Origin: Amphiura filiformis
Taxonomy: Eukaryota; Echinodermata; Ophiuroidea; Amphilepidida; Amphiuridae
Reading direction: 5' to 3'
Assembly: GCF_039555335.1 (NCBI RefSeq)
Contig: NC_092647.1
Location: 12,593,094-12,657,093 of the forward strand
DNA length: 64,000 nucleotides
Part shown: positions 1-64,000 of the stretch, piece after piece
How the letters are laid out: the number at the start of each line of letters is the position of its first letter
Position numbering within the stretch: position 1 is the first letter of the stretch
Made by a program: the position numbers and the translations under genes
The notes under the pieces: generated by a model
What the model was told of the DNA's origin: nothing
What the model saw: the letters and a program-made list of their open reading frames with translations, nothing else
The model's database searches: none

Positions 1-123
1 GATGTAAGTGGGAGTATGTGCGTCAATGTTTGCAACGACACACATTCAAACCATGCACCTACCTGCAAATGAGTACCCACATTATTGGAAAGTTTATTAT
101 TAACAGCATTATTTTTTAATTAC

Positions 124-340
124 CTGTAATGGACCTGACAGGAACCATACCTGAACCATGAGCTTGTTGTGTTGGCAGCTGAACTTGTTGAATCTGCTGG
201 TGCTGTTGTTCATCTTGTCCTGCTTGTGCAGGTTGTTGAATCTGCTGCTGCTGTTGTTCATCTTGTCCTGATTGTACTGGTTGTTGTTGCTGCTGTCTGT
301 CTTGGCGCTTTCTGGTCCTATGCCTACCCTTGCGAGTCAT
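124..340 (-). CDS. Possible first coding exon, glutamine-rich protein of unknown function
   Basis: On the minus strand an ATG at 338-340 opens 72 complete codons to a consensus splice donor: CAG at 126-124 followed by GTAATT from 123. The unspliced frame stops just after the donor. The product starts with a basic stretch (MTRKGRHRTRKRQDRQ) and continues with two imperfect copies of a unit that reads GQDEQQ followed by glutamines and IQQ, so the exon contains an internal ~45-bp duplication. A second possible donor (CAG then GTATGG) lies near 151-155. The basic start could be a nuclear signal, but that is inference. No family is recognised. Downstream exons would lie left of the window. It could instead be a chance open frame across a CAG-rich tract, which is why confidence is low. 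Confidence 0.35.
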
Positions 341-842
341 GTTGAAACTTCAGCAGAAATTAACGATTCCTAATTGATATTTGTGAACAAAAATTCAACA
401 TCACAATGCTAAAATCAATGTGCACACAAATGTTGGGTGGACTGAAAAAGATTGTGATCTAATTGACCAATTTCTGACTCAACACTCTGATTTGGACCAA
501 GTGCCATTTTCTTTTTATGTGCGACACAGTTTTTTCTATCTATGCCAGGTCATGTAGATTACATGTAGCTCAATTTACTGCAGCTCAACATCAATTTTAT
601 AGTAATGATTAAAGCTCCCGCGCGTATAAGTAAAATCACCCGCTTTTTGCATGTTATTCCCGCACACCGTCATCGTCCCTATATCTTCGTGTCAAAAATT
701 GCCGTGATAGTACGATGAATCCTCACGTTTTCAACAGCTACGCATGGTGATTTTATTCGAGATAGGCCGAGCGACTTAGGCTAAGCATACAATTTGAGAT
801 TTTGAGAGCCTGCCACACTGTTTCTATTCTATGTTTTTACGA
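341..842. other. No gene seen; upstream flank of the Q-rich exon
   Basis: Mixed AT-rich sequence. It would contain the 5' UTR and promoter if the exon at 124-340 is real. I see no clear TATA box, CCAAT pair or repeat. One TACATGTA octamer lies at 560-567. Confidence 0.4.
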
Positions 843-848
843 TTTTCA

Positions 849-970
849 GTATGACCAGTATATGGCTGGTCGTAACCGCCACAACGTGGAGCTGCTACGC
901 CAGTAGCTTACTTTTCGCTTCGAGCTAAATTGACCAATCATGTTAGATCTTTTCATTACGCTGGAGACAG
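849..970 (+). repeat. Left arm of inverted repeat pair (partner 2745-2870)
   Basis: The sequence from CTGGTCGTAACCGCC through GTGGAGCTGCTACG to ATTGACCAATCATG recurs, diverged, in reverse complement at 2745-2870. The two arms could be the ends of one ~2-kb element or two separate MITE copies. No transposase frame lies between them. Confidence 0.5.
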
Positions 971-1954
971 TGGATGCATCCTCGCTCCAGAGAGAAAAAC
1001 TCTTGCCAAAATTAATGTTTACTATGGGGATTTTAAATGAATCGATTGTAAATAAACCACGACCAGCTGTACAGGATCAATACCATTGTTTGATTAGTGT
1101 ATAGTCAATGTTACCTTGCATGCATGTGTCATGTGTGTGGCGTGTTTGTTTGTTTGTTTGTCTACTGTGTCAGGCCAGGATCACTGACACCCACGGTACT
1201 GATACTGTCATACTATCACGGTGATCATATTGTTGAATGTTGTTGACTTTAAAATAATCATGATGCAGTCATGTCTACAGTAGAATTCACCACGACCTTT
1301 GAAGGACTTAAACCCCATTAAAAGCTATTAAACCAAGATAACACTCAATGAAAACAGCTCAACTATGTTACATCAGATCTTCTCTGGTTAAATACACACT
1401 GCACTTGTGTCTGTTTTACCTGTGCAATGAGCAATGAGCTGGTATTAGAGTTTCAGTTGGGTGAACGATTATAAAGCTTAACGCAAGGTAACAATACTGT
1501 GGGCTTTTGTTTACTTAAATGAGACAATAGTCTGCTTATTGTTAACCAGCGTTCTTGAAAATGAGAAGCTTAATGACTTAACACGGTTTAGAAATAATTT
1601 CTTCATATTTTTTGGTGTTATCTGTCGCTTATATCCTTCCTAAAACACTAAAGTACCAATATTTCCAAACACCTAAATTAGCTAAAAATTTAGGACATGT
1701 TACAAAACTATATTTTCTAGAATTTCAGAGAATACTTTAAATATTGGCGGTTATTTTTTACACAGTGACGCCAACTAGGCAATGGCCTATACTTCTAACA
1801 TACACTATTTGTAGAGGTCACGCGTCAATGGTGAGCGCACTGAGTATTGTGTATAGGAAAACGGACAGTAACTACAGTATGTATGGCCTACTACTAGTAT
1901 ATAAAGTAAATCCGAACTGGTTTGCAGTTTGCTGAAGGTCGAATTCCGCAGGGA

Positions 1955-2430
1955 CAGGGGCGTAGCAAGAGCACCGGGGGCCCATGGACAAGGAGCAGTA
2001 TGGGCCCTTTGAACCAGGGCGGGATTTAGCCTACCTTATGGAGGCCCCGAACTCACGTGCAGAGGAAAGCATGTACACACAAGACAGTGGCCAAGTTTTG
2101 GTTCAACTAAAGGGGGACTAAGGGAGACTAACATATTTTGTTCAATTCAATTTTAGACTATTTTGGCCCCAGATCAACATGAATTTTGCTACTTGTATTT
2201 GCGCGAAGCGCGGAAAATTTTACAATTTTACCCTATTTTGACCACAAAACGTGTTGTTATTGGGGTTAAAAGAAAGATACATAGAGCAAATTTTGGGGGC
2301 CCTGGACCCGGGTCCATCTGGCCCAATGGTATAAAAAAAACCCTATTAGCCCTTATTTAATTCTCGCTTTTGTGCTCGGGGCCCTGAACCTCGGGGCCCA
2401 TGGACTTCGGCCCACCCTGTCCCCCGCTTG
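1955..2430. repeat. Degenerate GGGCCCATGGA-bounded repeat
   Basis: Copies of GGGCCCATGGAC occur near 1977 and 2395, and the left one follows the recurrent GGGGCGTAGCAAG motif. Related 'AGTGGCGTAG' starts occur at about 44215, 46390 and 63143. The middle is AT-rich with GCGCGAAGCGCGG near 2200. This looks like an old dispersed repeat; the exact ends are unclear. Confidence 0.35.
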
Positions 2431-2744
2431 CTGGCGCCTGCGCAGGGACACCGCGCAAGTTATACAAATTAGCTCCCGGCGATACACTGCAGATCGCAGA
2501 ACTGTGTGCATAGTTTACCACCACTCTGCCTAGCTATATAGTTATGTACAATACTGTATGAGTTTCTTATGAGTGCAAGTCCATCTTAATAATAAGTCAG
2601 TTCGTACTTTTCATAAACTACTTTTTGAATCATAACTTTCGTGACCGAGGATATCTTTCAACTACGTGACGCTCGCCTGGCAAATTCTTAATGAATAAAT
2701 TCGCTTCACGTAATGAGTAAGTCGTACTTAATTGGTCAGTTTTA

Positions 2745-2879: not shown

Positions 2880-4188
2880 ATTGCAAGAAAATTTTATTTG
2901 TTGTCAGGTTTTATCTTAAATACACTAACTGGAAATTAAATACACTAATTAGTGAGGACCGGTATTTTGCTGTGGATATGTTTAACTGCAATTTGCGGGT
3001 AAAAATTTGAAATCCTGGGTAAAAATTGTGATCATATTCAACTCTTTGAGAAAATAATAATATAAAGGAATGCATGTAAAATCCAGCTGCAATACAATGT
3101 ACATTATTGACACACTACCACTCTCTTTATCTACGGCAATAATAGAATATCGATTTCAATCGAATTGAACACATTGCTCAGTTTTGAGTTTGTAGTTGAC
3201 TACTAAGCGACCTAAGCGATCGATTGCTAGCCAATCAGATAGAACTCCTTTTCTTATGCGTTAGTGAAATACCACTCGCCTGTCAGCTCACCAACGGAGT
3301 ATTAAATTTATATTTATCGTATAGGACGTCGACACTGTGTCCCGCTGGATTGAGTAAATTTCAGTTTTTTACAATTATGTGCACAATATTACCGACATAT
3401 CATTCATGGCAAAAATATCTAGGTCTGCAATTGCCATCATCATTTTTCGTGTAAAATACATACATACAAATGTACACCCTGCTAATTTCTGTTCTTTTTT
3501 ACATGTACATTTTTTTTAAAGATATATAACATTGGATTTGTGCATATTTGTTTATCTTTTTTAATTTAGGTTGACAATAGGTTCTTTTTGCATGCTGCCT
3601 TGTGTGAATTTGGTGAAAACCATAGAAATAACAATATACTGTATACAGTCACACAGAGCACTCAGCAGTTTAAAAGAGAACAATGATATCCTATCACGCA
3701 TGGCCGAATTGTATTTTTTGTCAAGTCATATGTTGCTCAATCTATAAAAACAAGAATTTCCCACATATCGCTAGTATAGTAAATGAAGTGTAAAAATACA
3801 TGTTAAATTACCTCAATTGGTGTGTAAGTCCAATCCAACCAAAGTAAATCCTTGATTTTCCTTCAAACAGTGAATTGTTTCCACTCAAATTCAATTTAAT
3901 ATGATACGGTTAGAAAAACACATACGCCATATTTCATACATTGTACAGTGTTGCTACAATGTAGCCAATTCGCGATGTGTGGTGCAAAAGTACAACTTGG
4001 GTGTTTTTTCCACAATAATGGCAATATTGTGGAAATTTCTAGATTGCCAATGCAATGTGGACTACATGGATTAATAGTACTAAATGCGAACGCACCCAAC
4101 GACATGTACACTTACCACCAGGTTACCACAATGAATTGAGATATGATTGGGCAAGTTGCCAAGGTACAAAGTACAAAGCAATTTAAGC
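2880..4188. other. No gene or clear repeat seen
   Basis: AT-rich sequence with short open frames on both strands that carry no recognisable motif. A TACATGTA octamer is at 3500-3507. Confidence 0.35.
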
Positions 4189-4557
4189 CAAGAAATGTCT
4201 TTAAAAAAGACAATGCCTCCAAGATACCAGTGGGCACCTTTTGTTATTAGTTAAGGAGACACTTATAATGCTAGCTTTAAGGTAACGCTATTGGATATAG
4301 ATTTTTGTCTGATTGAAATATGTGAGCCCATTCTCTCCTGATTACAAGACTGAAAATTTTATTTTAATCGGATATTCGGTTACCAAAATATGGCCTGTCA
4401 AAATGGCACGTAACCAAGAAGTTGGCAACAACTTTCTTTTATTTTTGTTTTGCAATGTTGTCAGGTATCCCTTATTTTCTAATTATATATGCAAGAATTA
4501 TACAAAGTAAAATGTTCAGATCGGCTACAAAATAAGATATAAAACCCATGGATGCCT

Positions 4558-4652
4558 TTGGCAAATTTCCATTTGCATATTAATTAATTAGGGCCCTAAT
4601 CAACTTTTCTAATAAGTGGCCCTAATTAATTATGCAAATTGAAATTTGCCAA
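4558..4652. repeat. Inverted repeat within element X copy 1
   Basis: Arms begin TTGGCAAATTTCCATTTGCAT and end ATGCAAATTGAAATTTGCCAA, flanking an internal AATTAGGGCC / GGCCCTAATT pair. The structure is also kept in copy 2 near 20310-20402. Confidence 0.75.
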
Positions 4653-4758
4653 AACGCAACCGTAATTTTGTAGTAGTATGTGTTCTAACCATGTACCATG
4701 CCTCAGTGCCATAGCTCTTTTAATTGTATCTGATTATCTGAAATCTTTACTTTGCATA

Positions 4759-5535
4759 ATTCATGCATGTAATTAGAAAATCATCTGGCAACTGGACTTG
4801 TCAAAAATATAGAAAATAAAACGAAACTTGTTGCCAATTTTTTTTTTTTTTTTCGCGCCATTTTGACAGGCCATATCTCAAGAACCGAATGTAATCTACA
4901 GGGCATAAGCTTTAACATACTATAGTATTATTTAAATAGAAAGAAAATCTAAATGTGTACATTAGCCAATAGGGCCACGGTCACCTAAAGCCATCTTGCA
5001 ATCTTGCAGATAATTCTGATGTATGAAATAAGACCTTCAAACTTTCAGATATGAAGAGTTCCAGATGCAGGCAGCCGTTTCTGTTTTTTAAATATAGGCC
5101 TAAGTTGTATCAAGAGTCATTTCTTGTGGATTTTTTGACTGAAAATTACGATTGTAACGTTTCAGAGTAACAAGTTTTCGTATCAGATTCTTTTATGCTT
5201 GTTTATTATATTTTGTATTCAGGACTAAAATAATATTAATATTATTATATTTAGGGGGGTCTTTTCATAGGCCATTACTTTTTTGTATGTGTAATTGAAT
5301 AAAAAATCAAAAACATTGTTTTGTTTTCTTTCCTTCATTTGTGCTTTGTTTTGCATCGAAAGGGCCAATATCAACACCTTGTTTGTAAGAAGTATTGTGT
5401 GGGGAAAGATGATTCTTGCATTTTATTTTTATTTTTATCTTAACAAACAAAAAGCAAATTTCTCAGTCATAGTCTTGAAACGGTCATGGGTATGCATGCA
5501 AAAATATTGCAACAGTAGGGCCTACTCAGTAGAAT
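4759..5535. mobile_element. Segment present only in element X copy 1
   Basis: Copy 2 runs straight from its equivalent of 4758 to its equivalent of 5536, so about 777 bases are either inserted here or deleted there. The segment contains GACAGGCCATAT and a poly-T tract related to X sequence near 4390, so it may be a second partial X-like piece. Confidence 0.55.
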
Positions 5536-6147
5536 GTAAAAAACTGACATACATACCACCAACATGACCAACCACGCATGGGAATTGGGGAAGCAAATAG
5601 GCCTACTTTAAAACGAATTATATCAACGCAATAAAATTGCAATACTTTAGTAGGCCTACATGTATTTGAACAGCAATGAAGCCGGCCATAGGCGCGGCTA
5701 GGCGTATCATACCATGACATGTGTGTACGTTGAACACGGCACAGCACATACATCTCGTATGCAGAGAAATCAAATAGCTAGCCGGTCTTTTCAATCCCAT
5801 CATTTCAGCCTATATGATGTAGACACGCATGCACGATGATTGTGGCCTAGTCGAGCCTAGCCTGCATGCCAGTCGGCCTGCTGACTCACCGCGTATTAAA
5901 TGGCACAAAAATACCTCAAATTTTGCACAAAACAATCCGTGATGTCAAATTATCACATCCAAAGTGTCGCCATGAACGTCAGCTTCAACTTCTCCAGCCA
6001 AAGTTTTTCCATTGATAATCAGATTTCATGTAATCATGAAATTAAACCTTGTTTAATGTGTATTCCCATTGCCACACACAGCATAACAGTTGTCCGACTA
6101 TTTCTACGATAAGTTGCTGATGTGATGAGGTACACCCTATATTAAAT

Positions 6148-6282
6148 ACCGAATTAAAAATACTAGTTTGCGTCTGACGTCATGACAAAGGCGCGCCGTG
6201 ATTGGTTGCTGACCTGCGCAGTATGGCATTTTTTGGTCTGGTTGACAGGACGGCATACGCAAGCTAGTCTTTTAATTCGGTC
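6148..6282. mobile_element. Small MITE with ACCGAATTAAA ends
   Basis: Inverted ends ACCGAATTAAAA...TTTTAATTCGGT, followed internally by ACTAGTTTGCGT / ACGCAAGCTAGT. The paralogous copy within X copy 2 is at 18878-19003 and lacks about 35 internal bases. Confidence 0.65.
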
Positions 6283-6677
6283 TTCAATTATACAACATAT
6301 GAGTTTGAAAAATTCTAATGCATAATTCATGAGCTTGATAGACTCGCACCATTGGCGCCACGTGCTAGGCGTTTCTAGAATCCCTATAGAATAAGATTAA
6401 TTTTAATGCTAATTTATTGCACATGCTGAGGAAGCGTGATTACCTTTTTGAACATTCGGAAATGGCGATAGGCGAATTTATGTATGGCGCAAAGAGGTGG
6501 GGATATATATTGGGCTCTCGATATTGGGCGGAAATTAGAGTACTTGTCAGAATATAAATTTGTACAATCGGCCTACATGCCGCGCAATGTGCGGCATTTT
6601 AGGTGTAAATTTGAAAGCAAACTACCTCCTGCGGAGGCAGAAAAATCTGTGTCATTGCATGTTTCGAGTTCAATAAT

Positions 6678-14360: not shown

Positions 14361-15528
14361 ATTATCTTCTGTGCCAAAGATGAAAACGGTCCATAGATCT
14401 TTAATTTGCATTTAAAACCACCTTAAGGGCAGTGTAATGGGAGCGAACATTGACCTTTTCGAGCATCATTATTTCTGAATTGTATGTCCAAAGTATATAA
14501 AACTATACATTTTTGGAAAGGAAATGAGTCAAGGAATCCCATGGTGACGTCAGATTTTTGTAAAAATCTCGAGTTTTTGAAAAATCACAAAAAATCACTT
14601 TTTTACCCCAATTTTTTTGTGACAACTTAAAAAAAAATCCGTTCGGAGTAAAAAAAATTCAGTTAGCTTTTTATGAAGAAGAGACATGAACTTAGGGAAG
14701 GTTTTTTTATTTTTTTGAAATTCGTCTCTTTTTTCGAAATATTGAAAAAAACATGTGAAAAAGGCAATTTTGTCACTTTATTCAGCTAAAAAATGCACAT
14801 AATGGTGTATATTTTTGTTTAAAACAAATATTTTGAAAAAATGAGAAAACCTTCCCTAGACTTTGATGTACTCTAAACGATAGTGCAAAAAGTTTACCTT
14901 TTGCTTGCATATTTTTCGAGTTATCTTGTCACAAAAATCGTGCAATATTGTCAAAAGTGAACTATGAGCAATCGACGTTTTAGTAAAAAAATGTCAAAAT
15001 TATGCACAAAATTTCCTTATATTTTAAAACGGCAAGACTTTCACGCTTGTAAAAGCTGTATATGGTGCATGGTCTAAATATGCATCTTTTTGCACCAATG
15101 AATTTATAATGTCTGCTTTTAGTGCGCCAAAATTCAAAATAATTAAAAAATCTAAGTGGCATTTTGACTGCAAATTTTTGTTTTGTTTACACCACATTTG
15201 CCGGCGTTAACAACATACCGAATGCGCCTTGACTGCGTTGGATATACGCGCAGAGTTGCGCCGCGTCACGCGACGCGAATCGCGCGCGTAATCACAATAT
15301 TTCGCATTCGCGCATTTCTGACTCATTATTTCCCGCCAATTTACTAAGCTGTCTTGAGCCATGTGACTTTTTAGAGTTGAAAAGAGTGAAATAAATCAAG
15401 CAAAAATACGTGTAAATATTAACAAGTTGTATTTAATCAGTTTCAAGTGAAAGAATACATCTTAGTGTTGATAAATATCAAGAAATCTCAAATTCGGGCG
15501 TGGACGAATGTATCTTCCATTACTCTGG

Positions 15529-46320: not shown

Positions 46321-46394
46321 TTATTTCTTAGATGTACACTCCTCCTCAGAAGAACTAAGTAATTCCGTTAACTTAGTCGTGTTTAACCAGTGGC

Positions 46395-46470: not shown

Positions 46471-46696
46471 TTCAGGTCTCTGCAGTGGTTAATTTAATAG
46501 ATTAACTTACGGCCAACCAAAAAGTTTTTTAGCAATCAATACTTTATATCTTGGTGTAAAAATTCAATAAATTCTTTAACATGTTCAATTATTTCTTTCA
46601 TCATGTTGATCATTGTTGTTTAAGGGGGTATAATACCCTGATTTTCATCAGTACCCCTCTTCTTTTTTCCTTGCAAATTTATGAAGTACATAAATA

Positions 46697-47376: not shown

Positions 47377-47379
47377 TAT

Positions 47380-48860: not shown

Positions 48861-48862
48861 CG

Positions 48863-49290: not shown

Positions 49291-49469
49291 TCTTGTCTTG
49301 TCTTGTCTTTGTTAAGTCGGCAGGTTCAGTCTTGCTGTACTTTCGCCAACTTTGATGCTGCTCAAGCTGATATTGATATGACTACATGTAGGCCTACCTA
49401 TTACTTTTGTACTCTATTTTTGAAGATATCAAGTGTGGCTGCTGAAGTGGTGTCCCCCTGGAGCTTGTT

Positions 49470-51244: not shown

Positions 51245-52298
51245 GGCAGACTGTGCCTGTTAGAGACCATTTTGATGGAACATGTTTGTCCATGACAGAT
51301 TTGATTTGATTCTCAATGGCATCCCATTTCTCTTGGACAGTTGACCCAGTCAGTTTCTCGTAAGTTTCTTGGAAATGAGTCAGGTCCTCTTTAATTTCGT
51401 CTTCGTCAGCTTTGTTTTTCAGGTAGATTCTGCGGGTGGATTTCTTTTCCCTTTTTCCAGCTAAATCCAATTCATCCAATTCAAGTAATACCACGCTGTG
51501 ATCACTCATACCAGGTACTACATCAACGGTCTTAATTCCTTTGCTGTTTGTCCAAACCACGTCAAGTATGTTATCTCCCCTAGTTGGTTTGTGAACCACC
51601 TGGTCCAGCCCATTTTCAAAGACTGTCAAGGAGTTCTTCAGCTACCTCCTTTGAAGCATAACTGTCTGGAATAACGGTCTGGTTTATTCAGTTAACATTT
51701 GGTTGATTTGCATCGCCACTCAGAATAATGTCAAACTCTTTATGTTTGGAACTGATGGTTGCAAGTGAATTTTGGAGACCTTTAACTGCGTCCATGTCGT
51801 TGTGGTGGGACTTGTAGGCTAGTAGGTGCCCAACAGTAGGTTTCTCCTTCCCTTTACTTCCACTTGGCTCCACAATAATTCACATTCAGAGTCAAACTCG
51901 GTTCTATGCGTGACTATAAGGTCCCTTTTACAAGCAAAAAGAACACCCCATGCCTGTCACCTTCCTGTCTTTCCTGTAGTTGTAATTGCTTTGAAGAAAC
52001 TCAGAGTTCTGTATGTCTGGAGAGAGCCACGTCTCTGTACCCTGTATGATGTCAGGGTTATATTCCTGGATTAATGCTTCCACTTCAGCCACTTTATTCA
52101 TGATGCTTTGGAAGTTTATCACAAGGATTTTCAGCGAGTTGAGGTGATTTCTATTACTAGTCTGATGTCTGTTCTTCCTTCCTCTTGAATGGAGTCATCT
52201 TCATCCGCGCAACTTGTGTCCCCTAAATCGAAGAACGAGTCTCGAAAATCAAGGACTTCACATTCGGGGCATTTCCAATCGAATGTCTGCCCAAGCTT
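51213..52298 (-). pseudogene. LINE endonuclease region (broken)
   Basis: Frames at 51928-52122, 51688-51873 and 51213-51629 spell an APE-like endonuclease. MINFQSIMNKVAEVEALI and IQGTETWLSPD carry the N-terminal metal-binding Glu. IILSGDANQPN corresponds to the GDFN motif with Phe replaced by Ala. LDVVWTN and PGMSDHSVVL carry the catalytic SDH. At least two frameshifts separate them. Upstream, DWKCPECEVLDF is a Cys-rich N-terminal remnant cut off at 52298. Confidence 0.88.
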
Positions 52299-52675
52299 GT
52301 CAAATGAAAGAGGACAAAGTAAAGAATAGGCCCTATATAAAAAAAAAATCCCCACTGGGGGGTAACACTCCTCATAAGACCTGGGTCAATATTCATATTT
52401 TGGGTCCTTTTTGTATCTCGAGTGGTGTCAAATAAAAGAGAAATAAAAATAAAGAATGTACCGGTACCCTACCCCCTCCCGGTATTAAAATTACTTTATA
52501 AATTTCCACACGGTGACGATCCTCATAAAACTCTGTTCAAAATGCCTATTTTGGGTCTATATTTCAGAATCCCAAGAAGGTTTGACCCCCCGGGGGACAG
52601 TGGTATAATCTGTTCTTCCCTGGTATAATACAATAACATGGTTCAGCTATGGTGCGGTAACCGCTAACAACCCGA
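52299..52675 (+). mobile_element. 146-bp-monomer element, right part
   Basis: Resumes TGTCAAATGAAAGAGGAC, with further monomers (CTCATAAGACCTGGGTCAAT, GTGGTGTCAAATAAAAG) and the tail CATGGTTCAGCTATGGTGCGG seen also at 39131-39152. Confidence 0.8.
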
Positions 52676-52964
52676 CAGGAAGATTTCATGGATTTAGAGA
52701 AACGACTGGTAAAGACTAAGAGGCAATTATTTAAAGATGGATGCTCGCGAACCCACACGTAAACATTAACCGTGATGGAATAATAATGCTGCAAAAAGGT
52801 GTTAATATGGCAAGAGCAACTACAGTTTCGAATCGAAGGTAATTATTTGATCTAAAATATTCTTGAAATGAATTCGGTTTCATCATCAGCGATGAATATT
52901 TCATGAAATTGTACATTACTTTGCACCCAAGTTCTGACTTGTTTCCCCCTTAACATAGTCATGA

Positions 52965-53145
52965 TAGTATACAAATACAACATGTTTTGAGGGGAAGTAG
53001 TCAAAACTACTGGTCCCGAGGTGTTGGATGATTTGACTACTTCCCGACGCGTCAGCGGAGGGAAGTAGTCAAATCATCCAACACCTCGGGACCAGTAGTT
53101 TTGACTACTTCCCCTAAAACATGTTGTATTTGTTTTACTATACCT
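52965..53145. mobile_element. Near-perfect palindrome, ~70-bp arms
   Basis: ACAACATGTTTTGAGGGGAA...GATTTGACTACTTCCC pairs with GGGAAGTAGTCAAATCATCC...CCCCTAAAACATGTTGT around a ~12-base GACGCGTCAGCGG centre, with about one mismatch. GGAAGTAGTCAAA also repeats inside each arm. Looks like a young hairpin element. Confidence 0.88.
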
Positions 53146-53600
53146 CATAAATATATTCACTATCACGGTAAAATCGTAAACAAAAGTCAAAACACACACC
53201 AGTCAACGTGCCGGCCGGCATGGTAAATAAGCTTAATATTTTGGCTTACCTGATTTTATTGGAGGATTTCTGTTCAATCAATCTACATTTTGACCTATAT
53301 TGTTCGAATTTTCTTTTTAACATTCCATAAATAACATTTTGTTTCATAAAACGTCAAATTCGCGTGTTATTTTCCATCGGTATCTCGGCAAAATAACTGC
53401 AGCAGACGCCATTTTCACGATAAACGCATCTGCAGAATCGCCGTTGTGTAGCATAATGCTACGTCAAAAGGAACGGTGACGCGCGGGGTCGATACACCGT
53501 GTGGTAGTAGCACTGAAGTCTATTTAACAACCAGAAGCATATGCTTTCGATACACACCACCACATTGGGTTCGTTACTTTTAATGCACTCGGTGTTTCTA
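53146..53600. other. Intergenic / upstream sequence
   Basis: No gene. More CpG than surroundings near 53385-53510 (AGACGCCATTTTCACG, GGTGACGCGCGGGG), possibly the outer part of the following promoter. Confidence 0.35.
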
Positions 53601-53651
53601 CCGTCCCGGCTCAAACCAGGCTCAAACGATTCTAGACGTTTTTCTCACAAG

Positions 53652-53705
53652 CCCCGCCTACTTTTCCTTCCTTCTCGGCGACCCGGAAGTAACGTTTTCC
53701 ATTGG
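53652..53705 (+). promoter_or_regulatory. Housekeeping-type promoter block (GC box, ETS site, inverted CCAAT)
   Basis: CCCCGCC at 53652-53658, ACCCGGAAGTAAC (ETS core CCGGAAGT at 53683-53690) and CCATTGG at 53699-53705 lie within about 55 bases, with no TATA box. This is the usual arrangement of TATA-less ubiquitous promoters, 80-130 bases before a start codon and donor at 53784-53797. Confidence 0.5.
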
Positions 53706-53783
53706 TTTGTGTGGTGCAAAGTGAGGAAATTACCAATATTTGGCAACGAATTACAGGAATTCCAGTCGTAGATCTCGACTGAA

Positions 53784-53796
53784 ATGGATATATTAG
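53784..53796 (+). CDS. Possible short first coding exon
   Basis: GAAATGG gives a start codon at 53784. Thirteen coding bases (M-D-I-L plus one base) precede a donor (TTAG then GTAAAT at 53797). If real, this is the start of the gene ending at 56214-56385. The phases do not match the longer frame of that exon, so at least one exon between them would be needed; alternatively the shorter frame is used. Confidence 0.3.
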
Positions 53797-54290
53797 GTAA
53801 ATAACACTTTCATTTATGTAATATCAAAAAATTGTAGGAGATCTACTACCAGTTTGGTAGAAAATCGAGTTGAAATGTGGGCATGTTTTTGGTATAATGG
53901 TCAATTGAATTGACGGGTTCGTATTAAACTCAATGGGAATCTCAAGCTTTCGGCTAGGCTAAACTTTAGTCTCGGCATTATACAACAATATTTTGTAAAT
54001 TTTTCTCGTAAATCGACTCGTCCATGTGTGGTATACACTCTCTTTTTCCATTTAAATAGTTAAGAATGGAAATTTTGGCCTTACGAGTGTAACAATTACG
54101 AGGTATTTGTCCGCGGTTTCGGATTCTGTTCCCTTCGCCAGTAGTGCAAGACTGTGGAATTCGGCAATGTCGAGATAGTATTTTCACGAGTTCATACCCT
54201 AAAATGCACTTTATCACTGAGTGTCTCCCAACGAGTGTTTTTTTATTTATATCAAATGTCTTCATTACAAAAGAAAACGTCCAAACCTGT

Positions 54291-54712
54291 TAGGGGTGGT
54301 GCAATAATTATGTGTACCCTGGGGGAATTATAGGGGGGCAAAGATTTTGGGCAGGTCAAAAGGGGGGGTCAAGTGATTTTTGGCAGGCCGAAAGGGGGGC
54401 AAGCAATTTTTGACACAGATATTTGGGCACCGTCTCTATATTACGCTCTAAAAAGGCATAGGAAAACGTTAGGAATACGTTCAAATTTCCTGCTCGCTGC
54501 GCTCGCATTATATGATAAGGCAATTTAAGGTTTTAAATTCGGGTTCCCCAAAATCTTGCATGTGTAAGGGGGGGTGGGGCAAAGATTTTTTGGCACATCA
54601 AAAGGGGGGGGCAAAGGTTTTTTGGCACGTCGAAAGGGGGGGGGGGGGCAAAAATTTTGGCAGACCATTTTGAGAATTCACCCCGGGTACACATAATTAT
54701 TGCACCACCCTT
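54291..54712. mobile_element. GTGCAATAATTATG MITE with G-runs, copy 1
   Basis: Ends GGGTGGTGCAATAATTATG and CATAATTATTGCACCACCC (TIR ~28 bases) with TTA on both sides. The interior repeats GGGGGGCAAAGATTTTTTGGC. Confidence 0.85.
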
Positions 54713-54752
54713 AATTTAGATTTTAGTTAAGAGAATTCCCACATAAGGGGCC

Positions 54753-55217
54753 TAGGGCTGGCATTTTCTTCGAAATGGGGGGTCCCAAATATGTCGGTGA
54801 CCGGAGAAATGACCCCCTATCGCGGCAAATTTTTATGACCCCCCCTAAATTTGGTTGGAAAATTTTATGAACCCCCCCTTCCATCTACACAGACTCAAGA
54901 CAAATTATTTATTGCGAACTAAATGCTGCACGCACTCAAAACTTTATAGTGAAGAAAGTGCATTGAGCGTGTTAAAATTTTTATTGTAAGTGTAAACAAG
55001 GCGCGCGTTGCACGCAAACATTTTGCATAGATTGTACGCACATTTCGATTGTGAAGTCAAAGAATGCGCTAAAATTTTAAGTCACCAGCCCTTAATAATT
55101 CTATAACCCCCCTATTTTGGGTGTTAACAAAATTATAACCCCCCTATCTTTTGTCTGAAAATTCTATGACCCCCCTGTATTTTTTTTTTTTTTTTTCTGA
55201 AGAAAATGCCAGCCCCC
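54753..55217. mobile_element. MITE with GGGCTGGCATTTTCTTC ends
   Basis: GGGCTGGCATTTTCTTC is mirrored by GAAGAAAATGCCAGCCC. Inside, imperfect repeats of TTTATGACCCCCC. Confidence 0.8.
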
Positions 55218-55290
55218 TCATCACCTTCAAAATACAAAACACTTGATTTGTTTACCTCTTTGATGAAGTATGTATTTTAAAACTGCATTT

Positions 55291-55625
55291 AGGGGTTGTG
55301 CAATAATGATGAGCTCCCTCATGGGGGGATTTCAAACGGCTTGCCAAAAATTGCTTGCCCCCCCCCACGGCATGCCAAAATCACTTGCCCCACCTCTTGG
55401 CCCGCCAAAAAATATTCCCCCCCCCCCTCCTTTTGCACATGCCAAACTTGGGATCCCAATTTGCAAACCTTAAAATGGTCTATATGCTTACATGTTGCGA
55501 ATGCAGCGAGCAGGAAAATTGGCATATTTAAGCGTTTCCGTACGGTTTTCCTAAGCCTTTTTAGAGCGTTTTATTTAAAAGGCGCCCCAGAATGTGTGCC
55601 AAAATCATTTGCCCCCCCCTCTCAG
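55291..55625. mobile_element. GTGCAATAATTATG MITE, truncated copy
   Basis: Starts GGGGTTGTGCAATAATGATG, contains GCCAAAAATTGCTTGCCCC, and lacks the opposite end. The 135-codon frame across it is a by-product. Confidence 0.7.
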
Positions 55626-55629
55626 CTTT

Positions 55630-55845
55630 GGGGGTCGGAAATATTTTTTAGGGCCCCACTTTCAGACCTAATATTAATTTCAGGGCCCCCTTTTTGGCCA
55701 TGATTAATGAATGTCAACCCTATAGAAAATAGTGTAATAATGTTCTACAAGAAAAATTAAGGTGAAATTTTTAAAGCCCCCCGGCAATTTTTCTTTGGGC
55801 ATTAGGCCCCCCCTGTTACAAGTGTTTGTGAACGTTCCCAAATAT
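55630..55845. mobile_element. Truncated copy of the 60471-60712 MITE
   Basis: GTCAACCCTATAGAAAA and the end ACAAGTGTTTGTGAACG match 60471-60712; the left end is missing. Confidence 0.6.
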
Positions 55846-56213
55846 GACACCTTAATGAACCCTGTGGTGTGCGACCAACTGGGGGGGTTAATAATTTGCC
55901 CCATAAATGAAATCACTCAGTGCTCAATGACACCGCACCACAGGGGGGGGGGGGGGATCAGGGGTAACACACCCCAGTGGCGACAACAGGCTTCCGCAAT
56001 CAAGAGAACAGTTACATGTAGCTGGGGGTAAATCTGCCACCACCACCAAAGGGGGCTGGGGAAGTGCTGATTTTTTATTGAAGAATGTGTTCATTTGGGG
56101 AAGTGTGAGTGGGGGCAAGGATTTCAAACGGCTGCTGTAACATGCTGGAGGTATTGTGCCACTGTCCCAGCTCTACCCTAACAAATTTTCTAAAATCCTA
56201 TTTTCCTTTACAG
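55846..56213 (+). other. Probable intron end with G-run
   Basis: GGGGGGGGG at ~55944-55954 and a polypyrimidine tract with acceptor CCTATTTTCCTTTACAG ending at 56213. Confidence 0.45.
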
Positions 56214-56385
56214 ACCCCGTTCAGACCTGCCAAAAGATGAGAGCTACTGTACAAGTAACAACCAACTGCCAGTCACCATTGACCAAGTCGCTTTTTTGCA
56301 GCAGAGGCAGACAAAACAAAGGACTGAAATAACGGAGTTCAGAAACGCACTTCACCGTGTGGCACTTCACTATGTTGCTAATTGA
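56214..56385 (+). CDS. Terminal coding exon of an unidentified gene
   Basis: After a strong acceptor, the frame starting at 56215 is open for 56 codons to TGA at 56383-56385. Its carboxy half reads DQVAFLQQRQTKQRTEITEF then RNALHRVALHYVAN, a charged, probably helical sequence with ordinary codon use. A second frame (from 56216) is open for 38 codons; the third stops after eight. AATAAA hexamers follow at 56537-56546. With the promoter block at 53652-53705 this suggests a small plus-strand gene whose intron(s) are filled by MITEs. No family is recognised; the signature looks more like a nuclear or cytoplasmic helical protein than a transposon protein, but that is impression only. Confidence 0.55.
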
Positions 56386-56536
56386 AGAACAATACTAGTA
56401 TTAAAAGTCGGGACTCATAAATTAGGTGTAATGGAATGTGTAAAAAATTATTCAAATCTAGTATTAGAAATATTCAATCTAGACAGATTAGAATATAATT
56501 TAATTTTAATTTAAGGGATTAAAAATTGCTTAGATT

Positions 56537-56546
56537 AATAAATAAA
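56537..56546 (+). promoter_or_regulatory. Overlapping AATAAA polyadenylation hexamers
   Basis: AATAAATAAA about 150 bases after the stop codon at 56385. Confidence 0.45.
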
Positions 56547-56687
56547 TTTTGGATTTATAAACCCCTTAAATTAAAATCAAATTAGATTGAATCGAATTGG
56601 ATTTAAAAAAATCAAAGCGATTTTAAAAATCGAATTAGATTGAATTCTAGATTGAATGTTTCTAATTAGAGAATAATGGTATTGTTT

Positions 56688-56828
56688 TTAACCGCTGGAG
56701 TGCATCTATCGTCTTATATAACACGGGCGACATCATTTTTTTAAGTAAAACAAAAATAATGATGTCGCCCGAACTCGCCCATGTTATATGAGATGATAGA
56801 TGCATGACAGCGGCTAAAAACAATACCT
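56688..56828. mobile_element. Hairpin MITE (~140 bp)
   Basis: GGTATTGTTTTTAACCGCTG pairs with CAGCGGCTAAAAACAATACC; GGGCGACATCATT pairs with AATGATGTCGCCC next to the loop. Confidence 0.85.
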
Positions 56829-56837
56829 TTATTCTCA

Positions 56838-57050
56838 TTCTTAAACACTTCAATCCTACATTTTGCAAGGAATTATACCTAGGGCTTAAAATCGATCAGT
56901 CCCATTGTTGCTATGCGCCTCCAATTGGTTCAAATAGTGAGTACGCCTATCGCGTCGATGCACACGCGCTAACCCATGTGATATCATGTCGTATCACACG
57001 GGTAAGAACCAATAAGATTGCAGGAACATTCTCAAGTGTTTAAGAATAGA
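56838..57050. mobile_element. MITE with ATTCTTAAACACTT ends
   Basis: ATTCTTAAACACTT and AAGTGTTTAAGAAT bound ~210 bases; it abuts the preceding MITE. Confidence 0.65.
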
Positions 57051-57490
57051 TTAGAATTCAGTTAAATTTCATTTAAATGTTTTAATCCAATTTTGGACTT
57101 GTCTCTGATTACAATCACTAGTAGACTGATTGAGGAATTTGTAGGGAACGTATACTGGATATCTTCTTCCATCACACAATAGTAGAGGCTAGTAAAAAAA
57201 ATCCCATCATTTATTCTCTATTTAGTAGGTGTGATGAACTATTTTGGTTTGATTGTTTATTGATGGCAAACACAGAACTTCATACTTTTTTAATTAAAAA
57301 AATAGTGCTTTTTATTTTTTAAATTTCTTACAAATCTCAAAATAAACAGTGATCAAAACTACATATCGGCCGTATTCACCATGCTTTCTTGTTGTGTTTT
57401 TTTCATGAACTCTTGTCTTTTTTATATAGTGTAAAAATAACTTTAGTAATGAATTGCAAGTACAAAAAGATCATTTGTTTGTCTATTGGC
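57051..57490. other. No gene seen
   Basis: AT-rich with poly-A/T patches. Confidence 0.3.
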
Positions 57491-57494
57491 AGTC

Positions 57495-57640
57495 ACTAGT
57501 CTTTTGGGAAGGCTTGTGTGCAGGCCTCGAATTTCAAGGTGCTTTTTTTTTGGGGGGCACCCATTTTCAAGCCCCCCCCCAAAAAAAACATTGAAATTCG
57601 AGGCCTGCACACAAGCCTTCCCAATTTCCCAAAAGACTAG
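57495..57640. mobile_element. Hairpin element with GGGGGG/CCCCCC centre
   Basis: CTAGTCTTTTGGGAAGGCTT and GCAGGCCTCGAATTTCAA pair with TTGAAATTCGAGGCCTGC and AAAAGACTAG on the other arm. Confidence 0.8.
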
Positions 57641-58153
57641 CAAGGGCACCAAGGCCAACAAGTGATGAAGAATGCCTTGAAAATGACAAAGATATGGGGC
57701 ACCAAGGCCAAAACTGAAATAGGGCAGGCAATGGCCTTGGTGGCCTCACTGCAATTCAAGCCCTACTCAGATGATGGTGGATGCGATATCGCTATTTTTG
57801 ACGTCGCCATTGGATTAACACATAATCATGAAATCTTCACAAACAATTCTAAATTTGTTATGTGGTGTCAAAGCAAAATTATCTTACTCTAAAACCGGTG
57901 GGGTTCTGCAAAGTACCCCACTGCAAGTATGTTAATTGTCCATTTATAATCGCTAACCGTAGTATTGTGAATGGGGCTGTCAGCCCTGTATCTTCGCCAG
58001 CCTCAGACGTCCGTGTTATGTGTCCTATGCCGCCTGGCCCTACTTAATATGGTACTTTCACAAAAGACTAGTATTGACTGACACCTGCCAATGCTAGTCT
58101 TCATGAAAGAAATAGTTTGTCTGCCAATAATAAAGCATTTACAAGTCGAAGAT
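57641..58153. other. No gene seen; short GGCACCAAGGCC repeats
   Basis: GGGCACCAAGGCCAA occurs twice (57645, 57698) with inverse GGCCTTGGTGGCC near 57733. Confidence 0.4.
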
Positions 58154-58281
58154 TTAGGACCAGAAGGCCCTACCTGCAATAGCTGCCAGGTGTCATATTT
58201 TAGATATGTACACTACATAATGCAAAAATTACTGAGATGTCTACATGGCAGCTATTGCAATTGGGGCCTTCTGGACTTAAA
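58154..58281. mobile_element. Hairpin MITE (~128 bp)
   Basis: TTAGGACCAGAAGGCCC and TGCAATAGCTGCCA pair with TGGCAGCTATTGCA and GGGGCCTTCTGGACTTAA. Confidence 0.8.
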
Positions 58282-58400
58282 CCCTTGAAGTGGATACTCA
58301 TCATATTTGCAGTATCCAGATTTTTAATTATTGGAATGAAGGTACACCTTACCCATCACTGCCACCCCCCCCCCCCCCACACACACTCACCGGAACCCTA

Positions 58401-58923
58401 GTTTGACTCAAGTTCGGTAGTGACGTTGGTGCAAAAATTTTTGGGCCGGGTGGAGTATTGAATCGCACTTTCGTAAAGTTAATTGCGTAGAGCGACATGT
58501 ACAATGTTGGTTTTAGGGCTCTCAACTAACAGGTAATTATGTACTTGGGTACCGGTACCTGATTTAATTTGTGAAAAAATACTTTTGCTTCTATTGAACA
58601 GGCAGGGACACATTGAATTAGTATGCATTGCTAGCTGTTCAATAGAAGCAAAAGTAATTAAAATTATTTTTTTTTTATATAGGTCAGTATTTCTCTGGTT
58701 TCCAACCTTGAATAACACCTGAGTAATTTAAGGCCAGGTTAACTGCCAGGTTATTTTTTCAAATTTTGTAAAAAAAAAAATGCCATTTTTCAGGTACTTT
58801 GACCCGGGTAGGCCAAGAACAGGCGGGAACTCAGAATTGGTGAGAGCCTTAGTTGGTTTGTAATGGCACAACCGCGAAATGACATTGATGTCATTAGGCC
58901 TATCGAACTTGAGGCTAACCAAA
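58401..58923. mobile_element. CTCAAGTTCGGTAGTGACG MITE, copy 1
   Basis: GACTCAAGTTCGGTAGTGACG on the left, diverged inverse TCGAACTTGAGGCTAACC on the right. Contains a second hairpin (58575-58655). A compact copy is at 62587-62762. Confidence 0.6.
58575..58655. mobile_element. Hairpin nested in the 58401 MITE
   Basis: ACTTTTGCTTCTATTGAACAG and CTGTTCAATAGAAGCAAAAGT are exact 21-base inverse arms; absent from the copy at 62587-62762. Confidence 0.85.
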
Positions 58924-58929
58924 TAAAAA

Positions 58930-59570
58930 TGCCTGCACATTGAACATTTCCAATCATTCTGTGCTATAATTTACAGTCTACAAGGAACTCTGCATTGTAC
59001 TTGTAGGCATCACTTGTCAGTGTCACTTTTTGAGGTCCTTATTGTTATTATAATTGGAGTTCATATTTACTAAATTACTACTGCATCGTGCATGTAGTTA
59101 GTTTATGCACAACATGTATTGCTATGCAAGTTTTTAATTTCTTTTAAAATGTTAAACCTCCAGATAAGATTTTTCTTCAAAAATTAAATTGTTGACTTTA
59201 TCGGTCCAGCAGCATGTTGGGAGAGTTTTAAATGCATGCAACAGATAGTTTACAGATGCCAGCTGTTCACTTCCAAATCATTATCTTTTCGGTCTTTCAA
59301 GAATTGCGCCATTATTCTCAGTTGTTCTACTGCACCTGGAAATGAGAATAAAATAAAATGTAAAATAATATTAGCCAATGATAAATTACAAATTATTATC
59401 CATGTATCAGGATTATAGACTGCCTTTTACCATGGACAGCATCCAGCGATGCTTTTAGTTTCGTTCTTTTAACTCGGATGCACTCGCTTTTAAAATTGAA
59501 AATCACATTGCCACGATTTATTAAAAATTCCTGTAGTAGGTTGCAGAATAAATTTTTGTACAGTAACTGA
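58930..59570. other. No gene seen
   Basis: AT-rich; no repeat recognised. Confidence 0.3.
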
Positions 59571-59574
59571 GTAA

Positions 59575-59988
59575 GGGCTGTGCAATAATTATGAGCCCTG
59601 GGGAGGGTAAAATTGGGGGGGGCAAGAAATGTTTGGCGAGCAGAGATGGGTGGCCGGGCAAGCAATTTTTGGCAAGCCAAAAGGGAGGGGCAAACGACTT
59701 TTGGCACACGTTCATGGGGCGCCTTTTAAATAAAAGGCTTATGGAAAACAGGACGGAAACGCTTAAATACGTAAATGTTCCTTCACGCTGCGCTCGCAAC
59801 ATATATCTAGACCATTTGAGGTTTGTAAATTGGGATCCCAAAAATTTGGCATGATACGCAAGGGGGGCAAAGAATTTTTGGCGGGCTGAGAGGGGGGGAA
59901 GCAAATTTTGGCGGGGCAAGAAGGGGGGGGCAAGAGATTTTTGGCGTGCCGTTTGGAAATCCCCCGGTGCATAATTATTGCACAGCCC
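59575..59988. mobile_element. GTGCAATAATTATG MITE, copy 3
   Basis: GGGCTGTGCAATAATTATG and CATAATTATTGCACAGCCC ends; internal GGGGCAAGAAATTTTTGGC-type repeats. It shares the block around TTTAAATAAAAGGC with 55291-55625. Confidence 0.85.
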
Positions 59989-60099
59989 CTATGTCAATGT
60001 TGGCTGCAGAAATATGCAGAATTTGAAAACAGTCATTTGCCCATAAACTTAGCTAATTTTTGATATACAGACATGGTGGCAAGACCCCGGGGGGGGGGG

Positions 60100-60376
60100 G
60101 GGGTCTTCCTGGTTGAAGGTATACGGGGGTGTGCCACGGTTTTGGGGTACCTTTTCAGCAATTTTGGTATATCGATGGGTGGGTTATCAGCGGAGACCAA
60201 TGCGCCTAATTAGGCGCATTTTGGAAAAATTGCACTTAAAGCGCCTAATTATGGCAAATTTGGGTGCTTTTTGGGTGATTTTTCTTGAAAATTGGTATAC
60301 TGATGGGTAGCAAAAACAGCAAAAAGTAGGTATAGAGAAAGTCAGCATCCGAAAGTCTGCGTGGCACACCCCCGTA
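60100..60376. mobile_element. MITE with ACGGGGGTGTGCCACG ends
   Basis: TACGGGGGTGTGCCACG and CGTGGCACACCCCCGTA; outer G-run and C-run flanks also mirror each other; palindromic TGCGCCTAATTAGGCGCA inside. Confidence 0.75.
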
Positions 60377-60470
60377 CAAAATTTTTCGAAGAACCCCCCC
60401 CGGGGGCAAGACCCCTCATTTTTTTAGTTAAATCATCACCTTTTTAAACAAAATAATTAAATGTAAAGGA

Positions 60471-60712
60471 CCGTTCACAAACACTTGTAAGGGGGGACTT
60501 TACAGACCTCGAAAATTTCAGGGACCTCCCTTTTTGACATGAAAATTATGGGTCAACCCCATAGAAAAGCATATAAACTCAATTTTTCCCAGAAAATTTG
60601 TGGTCATCACCTGGTCATTTTTTTCAGGTCCCCCAGCCCCCCTTAGAGAGGGTCAAAAAAATTCAGGGCCACCCTTTTTGCATCATGCCCCCTAACAAGT
60701 GTTTGTGAACGG
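60471..60712. mobile_element. MITE with CCGTTCACAAACACTTGT ends
   Basis: Perfect 18-base inverted ends bound 242 bases. Confidence 0.85.
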
Positions 60713-60721
60713 TAGATTTAG

Positions 60722-60921
60722 ACTATAATATTTACAGTATTTTCTTGGCCAAACTGGAACATGTGCGTTGCGTCCTCGTACTAAGCGTGTACGCAATGTA
60801 AGGCGCGTGAATGCTTTCTTCTGTACCACGCTATATTCGCGTGTGTTTATCGTGGAGCCACTAGCGATATAGCGTTTATAGTGTTCCAGTTTGGCCAAGA
60901 AATTACTGTAAATATTATAGT
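60722..60921. mobile_element. CTTGGCCAA MITE, complete copy
   Basis: ACTATAATATTTACAGTA-TTTTCTTGGCCAAACTGGAAC is mirrored on the right with one mismatch (TIR ~40 bases). Related copy at 9836-10010. Confidence 0.88.
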
Positions 60922-60924
60922 ATT

Positions 60925-61440
60925 GGTTATATAAAAGAAACCCACCTTGCAGAGTCGTGTACACAACAAGCAAAACAATCCAACATACAGCATGCTCAGC
61001 TAGCTGTACACACAGACAAAGGTATGATCAATTGATGCATATGAAAACATACGGGCAGTGCAGTACATGGTAGTCAATGGAACAAATCTCGATATCGTCA
61101 TGTTTTCGCCGTCTATTCGATGCGGGATTCGATGTCCGTGGCAATATTTGTTCTTAGTCCATATTATTATTTGCTTCTCTGATACATGATGAATTGAAAC
61201 CCTATTGCAAACTTGTCAAAGCACGTCGGTAAACGAGGCAAATAATGCGATTGATTTTCACAACTATCGTGTGTATTGCATTTTGTGTGTGTGTGAATGT
61301 CCCACTGGGCGCAGCCATGTTTGTGATCGAGGTCAGAGGTGAAATCTGTCAATCAAACTACTTTGCGATATTTTAGGGAAATATTTTGCCGAAGGCATTG
61401 AGGTGGTGTGCTTTCGATATACGGCGTAACCGGAAGTACT
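60925..61440. other. No gene seen
   Basis: Mixed sequence; no exon with supporting splice sites. Confidence 0.3.
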
Positions 61441-61444
61441 GCAT

Positions 61445-61520
61445 AAAGTTCCACAGATAATGTTAATGAGTTCCACAAATAATGTTAATTAGATAAAGTT
61501 CCACAAATAATGTTAATGAG
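61445..61520 (+). repeat. Three-copy AGTTCCACAAATAATGTTAAT repeat
   Basis: Units at about 61447, 61468 and 61498, alternately 21 and 30 bases apart. Confidence 0.85.
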
Positions 61521-61810
61521 GAACGCTAATAATGGCATGATCGCCCGGATGTACGATCCTTATATGGGCATGTTAATTAATATTCATGATTTATACTGCA
61601 ATAAATGTGCAGTACGTAGCCTGGATCTTGCCTAGTCACCTAAATCTTTATAACGTGTCCGAATACTAAATATATCTCAAATTTGGGGACTTGGGAAAGA
61701 TCCATGTTTTTGCCTGTATTTCGGCATTTTTTACATCCTTCAGTCTCCTAACCTATACGCATAGACGCTACTAAAAACCCTCTCATTTCTATTTGGACAA
61801 ACAATAAAGA

Positions 61811-61933
61811 CAGGGTCAGAATAAATGAGATAGATGAGTTGATTTGCGAGAATCAAATGATTCCCTGCAAATTTATTCTGAAAGAATCAGGATTGATTCT
61901 CGCACTGTGAAACGAAATTCTGATCTGGCCCTG
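61811..61933. mobile_element. MITE with CAGGGTCAGAAT ends
   Basis: CAGGGTCAGAATAAATGA is mirrored by TTCTGATCTGGCCCTG; GCGAGAATCAA / TTGATTCTCGC inside. The 89-codon frame starting here is mostly this element. Confidence 0.65.
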
Positions 61934-61934
61934 A

Positions 61935-62586
61935 AAAAGCTACAAAAATCGAATCAAGTTCATATATTTGTTGAGGAGATAAAGCAGTTGCTAAAAAAGT
62001 TATTAAACAAAACATGCTTGGGCTTTCAACTGGCGAGAAGATTTATCACATGCATTATTGACACTAGCATTTTTAATTTATTTAGGCCTATATCTAAATT
62101 TCTATTAGTATGAAGCAAAAATCATATGTAACCTATAATGTTTAACAATTCTATGTCCAACTCAGTGGATTTGGACCGCTTTGGTTCCTGTCGCACACAC
62201 ATGACGAAGTGTCCAAATTAAAGTCCAAGTGTACTGTAGGTGTAAAAAAAGTATTCAGTTTCGGGGTTTGACATACAAAATCCTGAACTTGTTGTTGGCC
62301 ATAAACAGTTCAGTTTTGGGGGCACAGTCCTGTAAAAGTGGCAATTTTTGCAGAAGATGAGTTGCACTTTTTGTGCTCCACACAGCTATTGCAAAAATGA
62401 AAACACATGATATGTTCTTTTATGTAAAACTCAAAATCACAAATTTATGACCTGAAAGCAAAATGGTTCAAAATTCTGTTCGAAATAAAAAGGTTTTTTT
62501 AGGTACCCTTTGTTGCTAGAACCAAGATTGTCACTCTTTAAGTGAGTCAACACAAAAAGGTGAACTTGTTTATCCAATTGCAACAT
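61935..62586. other. No gene seen
   Basis: AT-rich sequence without recognised elements. Confidence 0.3.
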
Positions 62587-62762
62587 GGTTCGCCTCAAGT
62601 TTGGTAATGACGTAGGTGCGTATTTCACTACATGTATGTGCAGGATTTAACTGTGCGCGTAAAGTTAGTCGCAGAGAGCGTAGCCACACAAGTCCAAGCG
62701 ACGCTTGTTTGCAGCGCAACCGCGAAAAAGCATTGACGTCACTACTGTACTTGAGGTGAACC
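62587..62762. mobile_element. CTCAAGTTCGGTAGTGACG MITE, copy 2
   Basis: GGTTCGCCTCAAGTTTGGTA and TACTGTACTTGAGGTGAACC ends with ATGACGTAGGTG / GACGTCACTA next to them. Confidence 0.75.
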
Positions 62763-63061
62763 AAAGTTTAGCAAGCGCTACAATTTATGTTTTGAAAATC
62801 ATTTTGTAACCTGGGGTATTAAACCCCATAGGGTAGATACTAAAGATATACTAGCAATGTTTGAGAAACTCAAATAATAAAATTAACATTCAGTATCTAC
62901 AATCATTAATTAGGCGATTTGCAATGAAACACACACAAGAAGCATGTATCTTTTTAATTGTTTTATTTCCCCATCAAATTAAAAGCTCATTACCAAGATT
63001 ACTGATACATGTATGATAATGATTCTGACTGGATAGAGGAATATTTTGGCACACCTGTACC

Positions 63062-63141
63062 ACCACATTGCTATTTTACCAGTGGCAGATCCACGCTTGT
63101 GGAATACCTTACCGGTTCATAACAGGAATGCTGCTCCTCTG
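63062..63141 (+). pseudogene. Short LINE C-terminal remnant
   Basis: One frame reads ILPVADPRLWNTLPVHNRNA, the LWNxLP signature of non-LTR ORF2 ends. It stops where an AGTGGCGTAG repeat begins (63141). Only about 80 bases remain. Confidence 0.4.
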
Positions 63142-64000
63142 GCAGTGGCGTAGATTTCTTTTTGACATTGGGGGGGATGGGTTGGAAAAAATTCTTGAAA
63201 TATAGAGAATCCGTCACTTTTGGCAACAGAACCAGTATATGGCACAAATGCGTGCGAAAAATTTTGCCATTTTGAAGGTAAAATCGATGAAATAGTGCAA
63301 AAGTGGAATAAATTCGCGCATATCCCCCTGGGATCTACGCCTATGTCCCCTGGAATAATTCAAAACCATGGTCAAGATATATCTTTTTCCATGACATGTA
63401 TAGCTGATAATGTTGCCTTTTTTTCTGTATTTGATCATTTCTGGTATTCTTTTGACATTTCGCTTTGAAGCTAATGGAAAAGGCGCACTATAAAAGTATA
63501 GTATTAGTTAAGTATAGCCCAGTGTGGTGTAATGAACCCCAAAATGAGTTGGTTTGCTCACTCAACCTCCCCCCGAAAATTTCAACCCCTTAAACCAAAA
63601 ACCAAAAAAAAAAAACTTCTTTTGTCGCCAAAATGTGTTGGATTCACTATCAAGACAATTTTTCCAACCTCATCCCCCCATGTCACAAAGAAATCTATGC
63701 CACTGTTCTGGGGACACATTCCATAGTAATAATTAAAACTGCAGCACCTAGAGTCCTGATTTTTGCTGGATATTATTGTGTAAAAAACAGAATTTTGAAA
63801 AATATTGAGGGAGTCCTCCTCAGCAAATGTTATAATATGGCTTTAACAATGGCAGTCCTGGACCTCTAAGCACTGGTTTATTGCTACCCCTGAGTTCATG
63901 GTTTGTTTTCCTCCAAAATACTCAGTCCCATTATCAAGTTTCCACTAGTGGTGGCAGCAAGCATGTGGTATCATGGTGGCATGCATGACTAATTTAAGGG
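63142..64000. other. Dispersed AGTGGCGTAG repeat, otherwise no gene
   Basis: CAGTGGCGTAGATTTC starts a repeat with GGGGGGATGGGTTGG; C-run near 63571-63576 and poly-A near 63605. No exon supported. Confidence 0.35.

Follow-up and report, generated by a model that had tools for sequence, protein, structure and literature searches.

In the present study, we analyzed a 64,000-base stretch of the genome of the ophiuroid Amphiura filiformis (38% G+C; hereafter, the window), in which two palindromic octamers of the form TA-NNNN-TA, TAGGCCTA (core GGCC) and TACATGTA (core CATG), are strongly over-represented. TAGGCCTA, together with TACCGGTA and probably TACATGTA, is suggested to represent the excision scars of a TA-targeting DNA element of the cut-and-paste type, a reading to which we assign a probability of approximately 0.7. 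At positions 5598, 43416, 43479, and 44619, GGCCTA is an exact 6-bp gain at TA. These gains, the enrichment in two of the 16 palindromic cores, and flanks of the type R-TA-Y (R, purine; Y, pyrimidine) are the observations that we count in favor of excision scars.

The over-representation noticed in a first-pass annotation of this DNA was borne out by exact counts. TAGGCCTA occurs 25 times in the window, against 0.59, 0.64, and 1.34 copies expected from Markov models of order 1, 2, and 3 of the window (Poisson p = 2.8e-23 against the largest), and TACATGTA occurs 18 times, against 1.75, 2.3, and 3.19 (p = 8.9e-9); the example coordinates in that annotation were right to within 0-6 bases (28163 for 28158, 32683 for 32677, and 58897 for 58895). 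TACCGGTA was found three times with 0.46 or fewer copies expected from the same models (p = 0.012), which is not significant for one of 2770 words tested, and clear enrichment in the Markov comparison was limited to GGCC and CATG among the 16 palindromic TA-NNNN-TA words. Eight octamers outscored TAGGCCTA, seven of which belong, by their letters, to a satellite of ~31 bp and one to a run of C. After the copied pairs 5651/19772 and 40621/40843 were collapsed, 23 TAGGCCTA were left, and the collapse of 5657/19766 left 17 TACATGTA; a second copied pair of TACATGTA (27279/29956) was kept uncollapsed in the counts. Words with any of the three cores then total 43, and the density is one per 1.5 kb for these words together and one per 2.8 kb for TAGGCCTA. 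The 7-bp variant TAGGCCCTA/TAGGGCCTA is present five times (0.53 expected). One-mismatch neighbors number 32 for TAGGCCTA (16.9 expected) and 50 for TACATGTA (47.7 expected), too few for dating. The word TAGGGCCCTA (two copies, 0.05 expected) was not used because it represents a single inverted copy pair, at 4589 and 20363.

Insertion at TA was assessed by comparing repeat copies inside the window, first through an unbiased inventory of the indels that separate them, in which several 6-bp gaps coincided with GGCCTA, and also by a directed test. In the latter, the two 14-base flanks of every TANNNNTA were joined by TA, and the best ungapped match elsewhere was taken at a threshold of 23/30; this ungapped probe replaced an earlier classifier that called false empties beside other indels (40843 and 29956). 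Five of the 25 TAGGCCTA were empty with TA, one was empty without TA, two were filled, and 17 were unmatched, and the 428 other TANNNNTA sites, which served as controls, included five empty with TA, seven empty without TA, and 53 filled. The ratios of empty-with-TA to filled sites, 5:2 for TAGGCCTA and 5:53 for the controls, differed with a Fisher p of 5.5e-4; at a cut of 27/30, which was set after the list had been seen, they were 4:2 and 1:53 (p = 1.5e-4), and the single empty control left at this cut has AA in place of TA. The filled pair 5651/19772 match each other, and the filled pair 40621/40843 is among the 17 unmatched words because a nearby indel spoils the probe; a third copy of this repeat is diverged at the octamer position in the multiple alignment. 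The empty-with-TA match of the word at 62083 appeared only at the 23/30 threshold and was discounted.

Two of the TAGGCCTA with an empty copy lie at 44619-44626, in an interspersed repeat (28/30 to the empty probe), and at 43416-43423, in one arm of a foldback repeat (27/30). The gain of GGCCTA is derived at both sites because all other aligned copies, eight with TA in the first case and four in the second, lack the six bases. The same foldback arm carries 43479-43486 (27/30), for which a copy at ~28009 has a bare TA and the copies at 43.1 and 41.9 kb are without the word. The word at 5598-5605 (29/30) lies in a large inverted repeat, the opposite arm of which has a bare TA (~19834). A further TAGGCCTA at 29877-29884 was near exact, its copy at ~27345 lacking the word and having TG at the predicted TA (24/30). 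One of the three TACCGGTA (27307-27314) was empty with TA in the copy at ~29914 (28/30), and the 5-bp variant TAGCCTA (19637-19643) faces a bare TA in the other arm (~5749) amid 30 identical flanking bases. The 7 bases of the variant TAGGCCCTA at 52327-52335 are missing from seven of eight other aligned copies, four of which read TA and three of which read TG, whereas the sequence of the eighth is different at this place. Accordingly, a few bases were gained precisely at a TA that was duplicated, as in a footprint, at 5598, 43416, 43479, 44619, 27307, and 19637, and a similar gain was found at 52327. The inserted 6 bp may be written as GGCCTA, AGGCCT, or TAGGCC, since the alignments fit any register. 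Insertion was directly demonstrated for no more than four to five TAGGCCTA out of 23, and the remainder may be regarded as such by analogy.

The large inverted repeat mentioned above is in pieces (4164-6645 and 18510-21560), with arms that are 80-97% alike and lie ~12 kb apart; the site at 5598 has its word in the first arm but not in the second, and the reverse applies to 19637. A search of the six frames of 1-30002 gave no Pfam match in this region.

The flanks of TAGGCCTA also deviate from those of TA sites in general. The base before TA, read on both sides of the 23 words, was A in 22 cases, G in 17, T in 6, and C in 1, against expected values of 15.0, 9.0, 14.5, and 7.6 (p = 1e-4). R-TA-Y was present on both sides at 16 of the 23 words, compared with 27% of 4,740 TA sites (binomial p = 2.7e-5), a pattern that was spotted first and then tested on the same sites. 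The flanks of TACATGTA show a weak preference for C at -4 (p = 0.016) and for A at -3 (p = 0.041), both without correction, as in the Tc1 target consensus.

The clustering at 40-49 kb reported in the first-pass annotation was reproduced: 13 of the 25 TAGGCCTA (word positions 40621-45721) lie within 5.2 kb at 40.6-45.8 kb, with the pair 40621/40843 counted twice, a concentration that 0 of 20,000 uniform placements reached. Local re-insertion or an unconstrained region may be the cause. Words with CATG and GGCC cores have one TA in common in two independent cases (mean under uniform placement, 0.01), as expected from the repeated use of TA. These are TAGGCCTA and TACATGTA at 5651-5664, which recur in the other arm of the large inverted repeat (19766-19779), and TACATGTA and TAGGCCTA at 49383-49396. 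Both had been listed in the annotation as abutting octamers, together with the words at 28150-28165, which adjoin without sharing TA.

In the proposed mechanism, a cut-and-paste element targeting TA would insert with the duplication of TA and later leave, with the enzyme cutting each 5' end of the element two bases inward. The dinucleotides left over on each side (GG and CC, CC and GG, or CA and TG) would be filled in and joined, converting TA into TA-GGCC-TA in the first case; therefore, an element ending GG...CC is predicted to leave the scar TA-GG-CC-TA. The variants TAGCCTA and TAGGCCCTA, with one base fewer and one base more, may reflect imperfect repair or different cutting. The observations are best accounted for by the excision of TA-targeting, Tc1/mariner-like elements ending GG...CC; the excision, the type of enzyme, and the element responsible are inferred.

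Excision footprints as such are already known, and that of Tc1 has the form TACATGTA. The words described herein are similar to the footprints of Tc1/mariner elements (Tc1, Tc3, Sleeping Beauty, ZB, and Passer) in that TA is duplicated and a few terminal bases stand between the TAs, but have the core GGCC instead of CATG and, for TAGGCCTA, recur every 2.8 kb. PIF/Harbinger elements duplicate a 3-bp TWA target; neither this nor an AT duplication was found, the GG-ended candidates described below agreeing only in TA on both sides, and membership in PIF/Harbinger or ISL2EU was not supported on these grounds. Footprints measure 2-4 bp in Tc1/mariner elements and 0-3 bp in ZB (PMC7913693), measure 0-4 bp in Passer (PMC9976928), and equal the overhangs in Sleeping Beauty (PMC7827188). 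The footprints of Stowaway miniature inverted-repeat transposable elements in Triticeae also consist of short pieces of the element termini enclosed by TAs, in several variants; those were studied at one intron across species, whereas TAGGCCTA is spread window-wide as its most over-represented palindromic octamer (PMC1925063). Regarding the superfamily PHIS (PIF/Harbinger and ISL2EU), PIF/Harbinger ends mostly start with A or G, which the GG start fits, and ISL2EU duplicates AT, not TA as here, and was rejected as the source for this reason (PMC4482050). No report of comparable GGCC-core scars at such a density was found among the papers listed in the literature searches, as judged by titles and abstract openings.

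Candidate source elements are present in the window. Foldback elements with GG ends and TA on both sides were found at 36484-36768 (inverted ends GGCMGTATGCAGACT) and 54291-54713 (ends RGGGTGGTGCAATAATTATG), the latter family having a second copy at 59572-59991 (ends RGGGCTGTGCAATAATTATG) and a lone end at 55290. Weaker GG-ended candidates are located at 14693-14858 (TA-flanked ends GGGAAGGTTTT) and 26624-30713 (TA-flanked matching ends GGGCCTGCACTTTGGCTCG, boundaries unsure), and TA-flanked foldback elements have CA...TG ends at 42032-42534 (CACCAGGCACAAAAAG) and CC...GG ends at 46695-47378 (CCCAGCAAACACAAAA). TA duplication was, thus, observed both in the insertions and around the candidate elements, and the GG, CA, and CC ends correspond to the three octamer cores. 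This correspondence is suggestive only because a census of ends was mixed, with GG not set apart, and missed several of the hand-picked elements.

A number of results weigh against the excision of such elements as the origin of the octamers. Other ends (TG, AA, GT, and more) are present without a corresponding excess of scars, and the automatic census of TA-flanked inverted repeats comprised 36 ends, of which seven were AA, six GG, four AG, four TA, and 15 others. The 23 TAGGCCTA stand against five GG-ended candidates and a lone end, which is an unusual excess. Beside TA, the GG-ended TA-flanked elements have five purines and six pyrimidines, whereas the scars have 39 and 7 (p = 0.011), and since the R-TA-Y preference is absent from their flanks, the scars may have a source other than the GG-ended families found here. 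Pfam searches with E-values up to 0.01 detected no transposase domain in the frames scanned, namely, all six of 1-30002 and 48999-64000 and one per strand of 34500-49499. None of the 18 TACATGTA had an empty-with-TA paralogue in the window; two were filled (one pair), one had a low-complexity match without TA (3500), and in the two copied pairs both members carry the word. The alignments at 42717 and 42765 were poor and uncounted, the 53 filled controls are interdependent, many being located in the same repeats, and all counts and repeat comparisons are confined to a single window. The proposal in the first-pass annotation that the octamers are scars is partly supported: the indels of exactly NNNNTA at TA that it suggested as a check were found for TAGGCCTA (four sites and one near exact) and one of the three TACCGGTA, but not for TACATGTA, which it took as the known form and for which no copy lacking the word was found, and the flanks of the elements differ from those of the words. 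The GG...CC and CC...GG elements that it envisaged have TA-flanked counterparts in the window, but the GG-ended ones lack the R-TA-Y preference, and the scanned frames gave no transposase.

Among other explanations, it is unlikely that a transposase or repair activity pastes a 4-bp palindrome together with a TA duplication at R-TA-Y, with no element involved. The insertions are exact and palindromic, the octamers outnumber the GG-ended candidates, and those elements do not share the flank preference, all of which such TA-directed micro-insertion would explain; however, the 5- and 7-base variants are an outcome that the imprecise joining of excision ends would produce, the window holds TA-flanked elements with fitting ends, and, to our knowledge, no process directly adds such palindromes at TA, which we count against it. 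We regard as slightly more doubtful the view that these words either belonged to the repeat families from the start or are protein-binding sites maintained by selection. Exactly six bases are missing in the relatives of four TAGGCCTA, which contradicts this view for those four only, and the flanks of most of the 25 TAGGCCTA are visibly unrelated, even though two pairs each of TAGGCCTA and TACATGTA were copied along with their repeat. An older filled state, with the empty copies having arisen by deletion between two TA repeats, is the least probable: the TA...TA structure allows this loss and the direction is unreadable at 5598, 27307, and 19637, with a single partner copy each, but the word is absent in 8/8 (44619) and 4/4 (43416) other aligned copies and control TA...TA sites show loss in just 5/428.

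Excision scars would account for an over-represented palindrome that is liable to be mistaken for a regulatory motif. If their density, extrapolated from one window, applies genome-wide, the scars of departed elements may be a main source of small insertions in this species and constitute a record of transposition that is invisible to repeat annotation, in which scars may be counted and dated and may reveal the target preference of lost elements. If micro-insertion is true and the density is genome-wide, very many identical palindromes would have been written into the genome.

Several other features were noted in the window. The ~31-bp satellite GACCTATGACACATAACGCGCCCCGTTATGT forms three blocks (25430-26345, 30746-31304, and 31628-31759), which flank the inverted-repeat structure at 26.6-30.7 kb on either side. 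The foldback repeats at 46695-47378 and 42594-42825 are rich in AAAACGTTTT, and the count of AAACGTTT in the window (16 against 2.35 expected) is probably attributable to these AAAACGTTTT-rich repeats. A broken retrotransposon remnant with the look of a LINE (long interspersed nuclear element) lies on the minus strand at 49470-51641 and has a reverse-transcriptase match (PF00078). Searches of viral_contigs for related DNA yielded no stretch for any of three repeat patterns and nine pattern matches for the reverse-transcriptase fragment, 0 of which were confirmed; tRNA and Rfam searches of the window gave no match. A 17-bp minisatellite, TGCAGGAGCTGCACGCG, occupies two blocks at 33803-34072.

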